The notes under the pieces are model-generated. The model worked only from the letters and a program-made list of their open reading frames with translations. It was not told where the DNA came from and searched no databases. Made by a program: the position numbers and the translations under genes. Positions 8,295 to 64,000 of a DNA stretch of 64,000 bases are shown here, one piece after another (position 1 is the first letter of the stretch; each line of letters opens with the position of its first letter). The DNA comes from a virus: positions 29,011-93,010 of IMG/VR virus record IMGVR_UViG_3300046665_000361. One strand, given 5' to 3'.

Positions 8295-8336
8295 ACAGGA
8301 GAGGCGTAAGCCTCTCCTGTACTCTTCTTTTTTTTT
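8295..8336 (+). terminator. Intrinsic terminator
   Basis: 11-bp stem ACAGGAGAGGC with a GTAA loop at 8295-8320, followed by a nine-T run. Confidence 0.88.
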
Positions 8337-54070: not shown

Positions 54071-54136
54071 TAATTATCCGCCTAACGGACGACCTCGCGC
54101 TTTATTGTGTGGGAATACCGTCCGTTAGGTGTCGAT

Positions 54137-54946
54137 ATGCAAACTAAAGAGAAATGTTGGGTGTTTACCCTGACGCACCTCCCTACTGGGAATTTTTTTG
54201 TAGGTATCACAGCACACCCCAATGTCCAACAAGCCACATTCAAGAAGCTCTTGGAAAGCGGAAAGTATAACGATATCCGATTCCAGAAGCTGTTCAAATC
54301 CTGGAGTGAAATGGAGTACGGCCTAGACCAGTACCCTGACGAAGAACAGGCGAATGTAGAAATGCAAAATACCCTCTTATCATGTAAGGGGAATCCTAAG
54401 TGCTTGAATAACCCCGTGTTTCCAGCAGGCGGTTACATCATGGCAGACCACCCGCACTTCAACCAGTACATGAATCGGTTCGAAGGTATATCGTGCGTCT
54501 ACGTCTTGAAGAACAAGCGTACAGGACATTTCTACATCGGGAGCACCAAGTCTGTCTCTACCCGTACCAAGACTCACTTGCGGGAATTGAAGGAAGGTGT
54601 TCACCACTGTTACAAACTTCAGAAAGACTATCGCGGTCTCTCTGGAATTGAATTTGGTGTATTTCCAGCAGGAGAAGTCGCTGATGCCAGAAAGCTCGAG
54701 CAGAAGATGCTCGATATGTTCCATGGCAAAGACGGCTGCTTAAACTCCTCCAACTCAGCGTACAGCAATTACAATGAAGTGCCTGAAGAATGGAAGCACC
54801 GCTATTACAAAGGGTCGATGCGTGACCCCAATGTGAAGAAGCGTCCAAAACCTGCGTCGAGACCTAGCCAACCGTCTAGCGTCACTAAACCTTCGTATGC
54901 GTTCAAACAGCCGCTATTCGCAAAATCCAGGAGTGCGTTACTTTGA
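54137..54946 (+). CDS. GIY-YIG endonuclease with a duplicated, partly degenerate domain
   Basis: 269 aa; the ATG at 54137 has TAGGTG upstream and is preferred to a GTG at 54107. Two consecutive GIY-YIG-like units are visible. The second (about 120-205) reads CVYVLKNKRTGHFYIG, with an Arg-containing helix and a Glu in KLEQKML, as in active enzymes. The first (about 7-95) has the same order but FVG in place of YIG and lacks the Arg, so it is probably inactive. A basic Pro/Ser/Lys tail ends the protein. Lying between RNAP and helicase genes, it looks like a free-standing homing or mobile endonuclease. Confidence 0.8.
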   Translation: MQTKEKCWVFTLTHLPTGNFFVGITAHPNVQQATFKKLLESGKYNDIRFQKLFKSWSEMEYGLDQYPDEEQANVEMQNTLLSCKGNPKCLNNPVFPAGGYIMADHPHFNQYMNRFEGISCVYVLKNKRTGHFYIGSTKSVSTRTKTHLRELKEGVHHCYKLQKDYRGLSGIEFGVFPAGEVADARKLEQKMLDMFHGKDGCLNSSNSAYSNYNEVPEEWKHRYYKGSMRDPNVKKRPKPASRPSQPSSVTKPSYAFKQPLFAKSRSALL

Positions 54947-60637: not shown

Positions 60638-61108
60638 ATGCCCTCCCAAGAAAATGAAGGGTTCCGTGCAAGTGGCAGTAAAGTAGCCGATAATTGCACG
60701 GAACTCGAAAACGACACGCGTCGACAGCGCGCGCTTCTCAATAAGTCCATCAGTACCGCTTCGACTCCAATCGTTGACCTCCCTGAAACGCTCAGCAAGC
60801 TGAAACGCGAAGGTCGCCATCTGGACGCCGTAACGATCGGCAACCTCGTCAAGAATCTCGCTCGTGATGTAGATGCACTCATCAAAGAGCGTAACGACAT
60901 CGACAAGGTGTTCGACGAAATTATTACACAGCGTCCGCGTAAGTTGCGTCAGTTGTCTGATTATCATAACCGATTGATGGTTTGCGGTAGTCAGTATCTG
61001 GCGCTCAACCAGCGGGCGTTCAACACGGTCATGCGCGACTTCGATGATTATGTCGATCTCGTCGAACCGCCGCTCAGCCGACAACCAGCTTCTGCCGGGG
61101 TGATTTAA
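60638..61108 (+). CDS. Hypothetical coiled-coil protein, 156 aa
   Basis: ATG after AGAGG. Helical and highly charged, with heptad-like spacing from about 25 to 130 (LSKLKREGRHLDAV, IKERNDIDKVFDE). It ends where the GTG of the next gene begins and heads a plus-strand virion unit. Function is unknown. Confidence 0.78.
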   Translation: MPSQENEGFRASGSKVADNCTELENDTRRQRALLNKSISTASTPIVDLPETLSKLKREGRHLDAVTIGNLVKNLARDVDALIKERNDIDKVFDEIITQRPRKLRQLSDYHNRLMVCGSQYLALNQRAFNTVMRDFDDYVDLVEPPLSRQPASAGVI

Positions 61109-62926
61109 GTGAGTGACGATACAGTGGACGACCAACGTCCGTCCGAAGAAACAACGCTGCCACAACCTCTGGCACCGGCTCCTGTTGAAGCGACGTTCAA
61201 CGATGATGACGAGGTCCTTCCTGTTGAGCTCGTCGGTACTGACCCGCATCAGCATCAGGAAGTCCCGCAGGAAGTTCCGACTGAAGAGTTCGTTGCTGTT
61301 AAGGTATCTTCGCCAGTAGCTGATGACGAAGAAGCTCACTCTGAAGCGCCGGCGGACGATGCTGATGACGAAGCCGATCCTGAACCCTGGGGCGGTGAGT
61401 ACAAAGGCAACCCGAACGTCAAAGAAGATCTCAAGATCATCGAACCGTTGAGTGACGAAGAGCTCAAGAATCTGGCGAAGAACGGCAGCCTGCTGCTGTC
61501 CAACTTGTCGGTATCTGAACTCAACCTCATTCATGATGCGATCCAGGTCCAGATCAGCGCCAAACAGGCCGAACGTCAGGAGCTGGCTGAGAAGGGCATC
61601 GCCCAAGGCTATTATGCCATTGAGGCAGATTTGCCTGATGGTAGCAAGAATATCATCTTCGTTACCGAACATGAGCGGCGTGCCCTGACGATCCTCAGCG
61701 AATACGAAGCGACCCTGCGTCAATCGGCAGATGACGATCTGTTCGACGACAGCGAGTGGACCAACCGTCCTACTTACGGTGATGTTAAGGTCATCCCTGG
61801 GCGGCTGGATCACAGCAAGCATAAGGACCCGGTTCTTCGTATTCAGGGTAAGCTTGGCTTGGCTACGTCGTACAGCACCCCATTCTGGGGTAGCGGTATC
61901 CATCTGGTGATCGAAGGTGGTGCAGCGCTCGATGAGCTGAGTCTCAACGAACGTATCCTGCAAGAGAAGTCCGAGAGTGGTCGTCTGAGCTCTGGCTATA
62001 TCTACGGCGCCGGTGCTCTGTATCTGGTTCGTCCTGTCGTTGATTATGTCCTCGGTCAGGTCAAGAGTAGCACTGCCGGGGTTCAAGATCCTGACGAGCT
62101 CAAGAATCTGATGTTGATCACTGACATCGAACCGATGGCTACCGCAATGGCAGCCACGATGTATCCGGACGGTTATCTGTTGGAGCGGCCGTGCCTGACC
62201 ACCCAAGGTGGTTGCGGTAACATCGAACGCGGCAGAATCAACCTGCGCCGAATGGTGATGGTCCGCCGCTCGAAGATCACCGATGATCAAATGCAGTTCA
62301 TGACCAAACGGTCTGGCTACGTTGATCCATCGCGTATCCGTGAATACCAGAAGTCCATTCGTGCTGAAGTGAGTCGTCTGGTAGAGTTGGATGCTGGTCT
62401 GTTCTTGCGTCTGCGTGTACCGACTATTGCTGACTACGAACGTCTGGCCGATTCCTGGTTACAGACCATGGATGCGCGTGCACGTCAGGTGAGTCGTTCC
62501 GGCGGTTCCTTGGCTCAGCGCCAAGCGTACATGCTGAAGGCTCAAAACGTAGCGGTGGTAATGGCCTACGGTCACTGGATCGACGGTGTCCTCGAAAAGG
62601 ATGACGAAGATGGTCAGTTGGTCGCTACCGTGGAGCGGTACTACGGCGAGGATGCTGAAGAGCGCTTCAAGGCCGATAAGCAAATGGACCGTGTCCTTGA
62701 GTCACTTGCCAAACGTCCTGATCTGACAGACAAGATCAGTAACGCTCTGCGCAAGTTCATCTCTGACATGACGCTGTCGACACCGACGGTGCCAAAGACC
62801 ATTTGCAGTCAGTGTGGCAAACCTGTGTCCGGCGATGAAACATCGACCCACCCACACCTGGTCAATGTTAACTCACTTGAACTTTTTTTTACCCTTCTCC
62901 ACCAACGAATCCTGAGGCGAAGTTAA
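61109..62926 (+). CDS. Large virion-type protein, 605 aa as read; apparently continues by -1 frameshift
   Basis: GTG start adjoining the previous stop. The first 110 residues are acidic and Pro/Gln-rich; then a long alpha/beta body with a CSQCGKPV pair near 565. In the zero frame the protein runs past a T8 tract (62883-62890) and ends 12 codons later. In the -1 frame the coding sequence continues without a stop for 161 further codons to 63375, and the downstream frame has no ribosome binding site. The true product is therefore probably about 755 aa, made either by frameshifting or from a sequence in which the T-run has one more base. No family recognised. Confidence 0.75.
   Translation: MSDDTVDDQRPSEETTLPQPLAPAPVEATFNDDDEVLPVELVGTDPHQHQEVPQEVPTEEFVAVKVSSPVADDEEAHSEAPADDADDEADPEPWGGEYKGNPNVKEDLKIIEPLSDEELKNLAKNGSLLLSNLSVSELNLIHDAIQVQISAKQAERQELAEKGIAQGYYAIEADLPDGSKNIIFVTEHERRALTILSEYEATLRQSADDDLFDDSEWTNRPTYGDVKVIPGRLDHSKHKDPVLRIQGKLGLATSYSTPFWGSGIHLVIEGGAALDELSLNERILQEKSESGRLSSGYIYGAGALYLVRPVVDYVLGQVKSSTAGVQDPDELKNLMLITDIEPMATAMAATMYPDGYLLERPCLTTQGGCGNIERGRINLRRMVMVRRSKITDDQMQFMTKRSGYVDPSRIREYQKSIRAEVSRLVELDAGLFLRLRVPTIADYERLADSWLQTMDARARQVSRSGGSLAQRQAYMLKAQNVAVVMAYGHWIDGVLEKDDEDGQLVATVERYYGEDAEERFKADKQMDRVLESLAKRPDLTDKISNALRKFISDMTLSTPTVPKTICSQCGKPVSGDETSTHPHLVNVNSLELFFTLLHQRILRRS
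62883..62890 (+). promoter_or_regulatory. Candidate -1 frameshift site, T8 run
   Basis: CTTTTTTTTA in codon phase CTT TTT TTT A contains a T TTT TTT slippery heptamer. Slipping back one base leads directly into the open frame ending at 63375. Confidence 0.5.
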
Positions 62927-63375
62927 TTACGGACGCTGGCGTTTTCAGCCACCACACAGGCAACATGTGGTTCGGTAGAGACGTCAACCCGTATGAGCCA
63001 GGGAACCCAATCTACAATTTGATCATGAACGAAAACATCAAGGACGATTGGACTCAGAACCTCGCATTCATGGAAGCCTACGACACGGCATTCAAAATCC
63101 ATGACCACGAGAACTCTGACCATCCGTTCTCGATCATCGGCATGCACCCGGCAGAAGATGCAACCACAGGCGATAGCATATCCCACCTGATGGCTGAGTT
63201 GATCTCCTGTCGGATTCCTGAGGTGACTAACACTCCATTGTTGCAGTTGATGGAGCAGTACCCTCGCTGGCGTCTGAACAAGCTCATTGAGCAAGGGAGG
63301 AAGGCTAGGAACAAGGAAGAGAAGGCCCTCGAAGGTGTTGAGCGGTCTATCGATAATGCAATGCCAGATGCGTAG
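62890..63375 (+). CDS. C-terminal part of the preceding protein in the -1 frame, 161 codons
   Basis: The frame is open from the T-run on. It has a natural-looking N-terminal extension (YPSPPTNPEAKLITDAGVF) before the first ATG at 62965, and that ATG has no convincing Shine-Dalgarno sequence. The visible part is helical with a WFGRDVNPYEPGNPI segment and a basic coiled C-terminus. If it were a separate gene it would start at 62965 and encode 136 aa. Confidence 0.7.
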   Translation, partial: YPSPPTNPEAKLITDAGVFSHHTGNMWFGRDVNPYEPGNPIYNLIMNENIKDDWTQNLAFMEAYDTAFKIHDHENSDHPFSIIGMHPAEDATTGDSISHLMAELISCRIPEVTNTPLLQLMEQYPRWRLNKLIEQGRKARNKEEKALEGVERSIDNAMPDA

Positions 63376-63427: not shown

Positions 63428-64000
63428 TCAGTTGAAGATAGAAGCCAAGGACTTGCGTTGACGCCACAGCAGGTTCTGTTCTGCGATGGTGAACTTTTCC
63501 TTGTTGGCAACCACGTAGGCATCCAGCTTCTTCACAATACCGGCCGTGGCATTGTAGATGTTGCCGCTGACGTTGTTGCGGTTGTCAGTCAGATGACCAA
63601 GGCATTGCTCGATAGCCGTAAAGCCGCCGAGAGTCGAAGACAGCAACTTCAGGAAAGGAGTCAGCAACTTCAGGTAGACTTCTTCCAGACCTGGGTTCAA
63701 ACTACCGCCTGTGAACTCCTTGATCTTCTTCAGAGCCGGTTCAGTACGACCCTTAGCCCAACCTATCGTCTCGCTGATATCGCCAGCCCAAGGAGCGATG
63801 GTGTAGTTGGTCATCAGAGTGTTGAACTGCTGACGGTCAAGTGTCGACCGGTCATTGGTCCAGCTCTTGTACTTGCTGCGAATCACGCCAGCCTGTGCCT
63901 GGAAGTCGGTCAGGCTTGCATGGTTGACAGCGCCTGTCGGATTGTAACCGTAGTCACGAGCCAACTTCATCAGCTTGACGCTAGTCATGTCAACCAGTTT
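63428..64000 (-). CDS. Virion-type protein, 3' part (start outside the window)
   Basis: Open to the last base on the minus strand (KLVD precedes the first visible Met, which has no ribosome binding site), so the gene begins beyond 64000 and at least 190 codons are visible. The sequence is helical with a Pro/Gly turn region, many Lys and Asn residues, and a Leu-rich stretch LKLLTPFLKLLSSTLGGF. Position after the virion unit suggests a head or inner-body protein. Confidence 0.75.
   Translation of the reverse strand, partial: KLVDMTSVKLMKLARDYGYNPTGAVNHASLTDFQAQAGVIRSKYKSWTNDRSTLDRQQFNTLMTNYTIAPWAGDISETIGWAKGRTEPALKKIKEFTGGSLNPGLEEVYLKLLTPFLKLLSSTLGGFTAIEQCLGHLTDNRNNVSGNIYNATAGIVKKLDAYVVANKEKFTIAEQNLLWRQRKSLASIFN

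Follow-up and report, generated by a model that had tools for sequence, protein, structure and literature searches.

To our knowledge, tail-assembly chaperones (TACs) expressed with a -1 frameshift are near universal in long-tailed phages. In lambda the slip site is G GGA AAG and the genes lie beside the tape measure gene; such proximity is typical of a TAC gene, not defining. The T4-like gp26/gp51 TACs are reportedly the subject of work by Vladimirov and colleagues that appeared in Virology in 2022. The scheme of the frameshifted lambda chaperone gpG/gpGT has been reviewed (PMC5009743). The TACs of Vandenendeviridae have a conserved -1 shift at GTTTTT, described with reference to T4-like phages (PMC12846349), and those of phage G were identified through their frameshift and were not found in virions (PMC8570332).

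The direct homologues of the gene described here are gp077 and gp076.4 of phiKZ and their homologues (phrog_4585/8054 and phrog_12109/7580), which have the same slip site. Every annotated record that was examined lists them as two genes, for the most part without a known function. No report of frameshifting in phiKZ or jumbo phages, or of a frameshifted TAC in phiKZ-type phages, was found in the open-licence literature. The TAC gene of Vandenendeviridae/Andersonviridae (phage Adele, PMC12846349) is similar in its conserved poly-T -1 site and in the routine misannotation of its downstream part as a separate gene, but differs in that it immediately precedes the tape measure gene, in phages that are not of phiKZ type. 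Between lambda gpG/gpGT and our gene no sequence relation was shown.

The gene lies near the end of a 93-kb viral record from IMG/VR; positions below refer to the window, the 64-kb stretch that was analysed and that forms the end of this record. Judged from sequence comparison, the gene is very probably read with a programmed -1 ribosomal frameshift that yields two forms, of 605 and 755 aa. That it is so read and that the two forms are the short and long chaperone of T4 gp26/gp51 type is, taken jointly, likely. Frameshifted TACs are a known kind of mechanism; as far as the searchable literature shows, the novelty lies in the assignment to phiKZ-type phages, in the large size of the short form (476-720 aa) and in the location next to RNA-polymerase genes.

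Reading frames and slip site in the window

The preliminary description of this DNA had read the 605-aa zero frame as ending shortly after a T8 run, with the -1 frame open into a downstream frame of 136 codons. Direct reading of the sequence confirmed this (Table 1): from 62890 the -1 frame reads YPSPPTNPEAKLITDAGVFS... and is free of stops to 63375 (161 codons), and a -1 shift would yield a protein of 594 + 161 = 755 aa. The slip site contains a canonical X XXY YYZ heptamer, T TTT TTT. Most ribosomes would read CTT TTT TTT ACC ... TAA and release the 605-aa form, and a minority would slip back by one base, with tRNA-Phe on TTT TTT, and then read TAC CCT TCT ..., producing the 755-aa form with its 161-aa C-terminal domain.

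Table 1. Features of the proposed frameshift locus, in window positions.
Feature	Position	Strand	Basis or remark
Upstream 156-aa ORF, placed like phiKZ gp078	60638..61108	+	Synteny with L002-L009
Zero-frame ORF, 605 aa, GTG start; proposed short form (TAC-N)	61109..62926	+	phiKZ gp077 homologue by tblastn and phrog_4585
C-terminal zinc-ribbon-like segment (CSQC...H.H), directly before the slip site	62804..62860	+	Homologue alignments; matches the T4 gp26 C-terminus
Slip site CTT TTT TTT	62882..62890	+	T8 at 62883-62890; heptamer T TTT TTT at 62884-62890
Zero-frame tail, 11 sense codons (62891-62923) then TAA; ends the short form	62891..62926	+	
-1 frame extension, 161 codons and TAG; proposed TAC-C domain	62890..63375	+	phrog_12109, E 1.7e-13
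ATG at which a gene caller would begin a separate 136-codon gene	62965..62967	+	Weak SD
Inverted repeat, perfect, 15 bp, 4-base loop	63390..63423	.	Sequence reading; flanked by the stop of the extension and the convergent gene 63428-63988 (-)

The stop codon of the 156-aa upstream ORF directly abuts the GTG start of the 605-aa gene on the same strand; by position only (synteny), this ORF is the gp078 counterpart. The first ~115 residues of the 605-aa protein (61109-61450, + strand) are acidic, proline-rich and predicted to be disordered (pLDDT < 50), and the length of this part varies greatly among relatives.

The ATG at 62965 has a Shine-Dalgarno (SD) match of -2.5 kcal/mol, compared with -6.3 kcal/mol for the start of the 605-aa frame, and is probably not a real start. 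The earlier statement that it lacks a ribosome binding site is correct insofar as the SD is weak, but too strong insofar as a weak AGG does precede the ATG.

Five T-runs of eight or more occur in the 64-kb window. Four are terminator-like, each preceded by a strong hairpin (-19 to -28 kcal/mol), and the run at 62883-62890 is the only one of the five that is inside a gene and has no hairpin; an intrinsic terminator at this site was ruled out, as no hairpin precedes it (-3.6 kcal/mol). These four, T8-T9 runs at 8328, 29903, 39296 and 56759, each have a TTC immediately before the run and resemble intrinsic terminators built to a shared plan. The inverted repeat that follows the extension has a T-run on neither side and is possibly the end of the transcript.

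The -1 arrangement among phiKZ-type relatives

In tblastn searches, the 605-aa protein matched 118 phage records at ~24% identity (2e-34 to DT01, 3e-29 to phiKZ), and all phages among the matches listed were large phages of phiKZ type; with the DT01 homologue as query, 219 records were retrieved. Residues 45-604 match phrog_4585, the family of phiKZ gp077 (E 1.3e-62), and the extension matches phrog_12109, to which the small ORF annotated beside gp077 belongs; both families are of unknown function in PHROGs. A DNA-level search among phages found no near relative. Scans of IMG/VR with a homologue alignment and with LucasX found no relative, and a further scan with another homologue alignment returned only the already-known metagenome relative L011. 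No significant Pfam family was found for the two parts or their homologues (PF12322 was not matched), and a PDB search with the gene product by sequence and by fold gave no meaningful match.

We compared 42 homologous loci from isolates and IMG/VR contigs, including 24 representatives that are below 60% pairwise identity. All 42 have a -1 frame that stays open over the end of gp077 and ends 113-164 codons after the stop of the zero frame; beyond the slip site, the zero-frame tail of the relatives measures 8-44 codons. An in-frame TTT TTY is present at the slip site in 41 loci, and only Vibrio phage pVa-21 differs, with CTT TTT; elsewhere in the 24 homologues this in-frame motif is absent (0/12,212 codons). 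The heptamers of the representatives are TTTTTTT (14), TTTTTTC (5), GTTTTTT (2), ATTTTTT (1), ATTTTTC (1) and ACTTTTT (1), with T-runs of 5-8 and a frame relation that is always -1. At the protein level, C566 and C569 are nearly invariant in the alignment of 22 homologues, and one of its four columns without variation is F594, which is the slip site's second Phe. Recurrence of the arrangement in 42/42 loci, 24 of them below 60% identity, goes beyond chance.

A programmed shift and a missing T had been proposed side by side for this locus; the comparison strongly supports the former (42/42 loci) and disposes of the latter. The slip site is a homopolymer run in an IMG/VR record, as would suit the loss of one T through an error in sequencing or assembly, or through decay of the gene. 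However, the same frame relation is found in independent isolate genomes with other T-run lengths, and L011, at 52% identity, retains it with a T8 of its own. Relatives were also expected to be informative if they had a single fused frame; a fused ORF is present in none of them, and what they have is the same -1 relation. Because this relation is fixed in independent complete genomes despite T-runs of 5-8, a missing T is refuted, and we regard its probability as negligible.

The T8 run of the window gene could also allow transcriptional slippage, in which the phage RNA polymerase would add one U, such that the part of the mRNA with nine U's reads into the -1 frame. Yet relatives with T5, T6 and TTTTTTC sites retain the arrangement, and the conserved element is an in-frame TTT TTY, which suits tRNA re-pairing. 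Runs of T5 or T6 are too short for the slippage known for cellular RNA polymerase; as the run is only T5 or T6 in some relatives, slippage during transcription is very improbable, and we infer that the slippage is ribosomal.

The downstream ORF might instead be a separate gene, translated from its own start or by re-initiation past the zero-frame stop, the open overlap being incidental. This would agree with the two separate CDS given in all annotated records examined, and with the fair SD at a few downstream starts (YongXC32, FBKp24 and pVa21); with fair SD at 3 of 19 annotated downstream starts, some re-initiation is possible. On average, however, the SD of the downstream starts is weak (mean -2.45 kcal/mol), compared with -5.48 for gp077 and -5.80 for gp078 in the same phages (Wilcoxon p = 0.0016 and 0.0005, respectively). 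The second frame is always the -1 frame, and the 848 codons between the slip site and the annotated downstream start (19 representatives) hold no stop, which has a chance of ~2e-33 at the stop rate of 8.5% seen in the same frame within the gene, if codons are treated as independent and shared ancestry is ignored. The alignment of the extension among relatives also continues back as far as the slip site. Two self-started genes in relatives had been named as the outcome that would speak against a frameshift; the relatives are annotated in this way, but with the second SD weak on average and the -1 frame always open across the slip site, translation as two genes is highly unlikely. In addition, when closer relatives are compared in pairs, changes over the first 30 codons past the zero-frame stop are enriched at third positions of the -1 frame, a mark of protein constraint on the extension. 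Between the window and L011, the 13 codons before the ATG are too short and diverged a stretch to show constraint by itself.

For programmed -1 ribosomal frameshifting, full re-pairing of both tRNAs after the -1 step (the classical tandem slip) is possible in 19/24 representatives, and re-pairing of the second-codon tRNA alone in 24/24; the conserved feature is an in-frame TTT TTY, as tRNA re-pairing needs. With single-codon re-pairing allowed in all representatives and 5/24 without a tandem heptamer, a slip by a single tRNA may be envisaged. A downstream stimulatory structure is usual, not obligatory, in programmed -1 frameshift genes. Folding of the following 60-120 nt in relatives revealed no consistent stimulatory RNA structure (mean z of 0.15, -0.43 and -1.14 for windows ending 60, 90 and 120 nt past the site). 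The slip would thus be a low-efficiency, unstimulated one at tRNA-Phe.

Probable relation to the T4 gp26/gp51 chaperones

A lead to T4 gp26 came from automatic annotation in DT01. In hhalign, an alignment of 22 homologues matched six T4-like gp26-family proteins with E 5.7e-4 over 220 collinear columns, at a probability of only 29%; the matched region ends in the zinc ribbon and Phe-Phe, and gp26 was the best of 14 T4 proteins. The score was 35.9 versus at most 20.6 in 60 column shuffles, and control E values were 0.32 (reversed) and 0.084 (best of the 60 shuffles). The AlphaFold2 model of the 605-aa protein is confident mainly from residue 250 on; beyond its own family, Foldseek matched it to BFVD models of "baseplate hub assembly protein, bacteriophage T4-like" (E 1e-5 and 5e-5; TM 0.52-0.61 on target). 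By this comparison, the short form is a remote relative, in profile and fold, of the T4-like gp26/gp51 TACs (PF12322, phrog_150/phrog_634), which have a C-terminal CPxCG zinc ribbon followed by Phe-Phe, as here.

In S-RIM50, PG216 and Ps15, which are T4-like phages outside the T4 group, gp26 ends in a similar terminus with GAT/AGT TTT TTC, and a -1 extension of 54-62 codons follows the TTT TTC, annotated as a separate small gene. At these loci (S-RIM50, L044:1974-2872; PG216, L045:1926-2938; Ps15, L046:1482-2407) the ORF after gp26 is called gp51 or hypothetical; from its reading frame, it is probably a -1 extension and not a separate gene. T4 gp51 (T4 locus, L012:7803-9229) matches both the gp26 family and the extension family (hits to phrog_150 and phrog_634), and T4 therefore seems to have a pair of paralogous genes, one for the short chaperone form and one for the long, having apparently exchanged frameshifting for them.

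The same arrangement in every relative examined, together with the likeness to T4 tail-assembly helpers, suggests that this is probably the missing TAC of phiKZ-type jumbo phages. Given the frameshift, we infer with good confidence that the gp077-type protein is a TAC. The 605-aa form would be the TAC-N and the 755-aa form the TAC-NC of a T4 gp26/gp51-type chaperone; by analogy with lambda gpG/gpGT, many short copies would coat the tape measure and few long copies would recruit tail-tube subunits. The predicted C-terminal helices of the extension would suit a TAC-C domain. The model of the extension has low overall confidence and is confident mainly in a C-terminal helical bundle. A fold search with this model gave only weak matches, all to its own family (the best to Psa21, E 3.3e-3), and hhalign against T4-like extensions gave E 0.021 (score 16.8, compared with 14.5 for the top of 60 shuffles).

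TACs leave the mature particle. The label "virion gene" in the preliminary description is thus unsupported, as the protein resembles such chaperones. In the 201phi2-1 record, gp138 and gp139 are marked as identified by mass spectrometry and the neighbouring gp135-137 are not, which is weakly in keeping with a non-virion role.

The frameshift could be real and programmed with the protein serving another role, for example one linked to the neighbouring RNA-polymerase or head genes. In the phages that were checked, the gene has RNA-polymerase subunit genes and a head protein next to it, the protein is far larger than known TACs, the extension is not recognizably related to known TAC-C domains, and function is listed as unknown for both PHROGs families. 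Set against this are the profile and fold matches to gp26-type proteins and the presence in T4-like phages of the same slip site, at the corresponding point of the zinc-ribbon terminus, and we consider a role other than tail-assembly chaperone unlikely.

Gene neighbourhood and implications

The gene order is as in phiKZ, with an RNA-polymerase piece and head protein on one strand and the gp078-like ORF, gp077 and extension on the other; the helicase and nvRNAP genes also lie near the 605-aa gene, as in phiKZ. By the phage RNA-polymerase subunit, the nearest relatives are again of phiKZ type, with DT01 first (34%). The tape measure gene is not beside the window gene, whose neighbours are RNA-polymerase subunits, helicase and small ORFs.

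The genes of T4-like gp26/gp51 are located near tail or baseplate genes, whereas the phiKZ-type gene lies beside RNA-polymerase genes; the two types also differ in the size of the short form (208-281 aa in T4-like phages, 476-720 aa in phiKZ-type) and of the extension (about 55-65 and about 150-176 aa, respectively). As a tentative scenario, which we hold possible rather than probable, the phiKZ-type gene encodes an enlarged TAC whose long form arises at a minimal -1 site, where one tRNA-Phe alone re-pairs on T TTY and no stimulatory structure takes part; the gene would have left the tail cluster for its place near the RNA-polymerase genes.

If the chaperone reading is right, one correction would change how a conserved pair of genes is annotated in deposited genomes that may number 200 or more, provide a testable function for protein families now listed as unknown, and connect jumbo phages with the gp26/gp51 system of T4.

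Scanning the window for Rfam families and for tRNAs gave no matches. Between the nvRNAP beta' region and the helicase, the ORF at 54107-54946 (+ strand) has a GIY-YIG nuclease domain (Pfam E 1.4e-7) and is probably a homing endonuclease.
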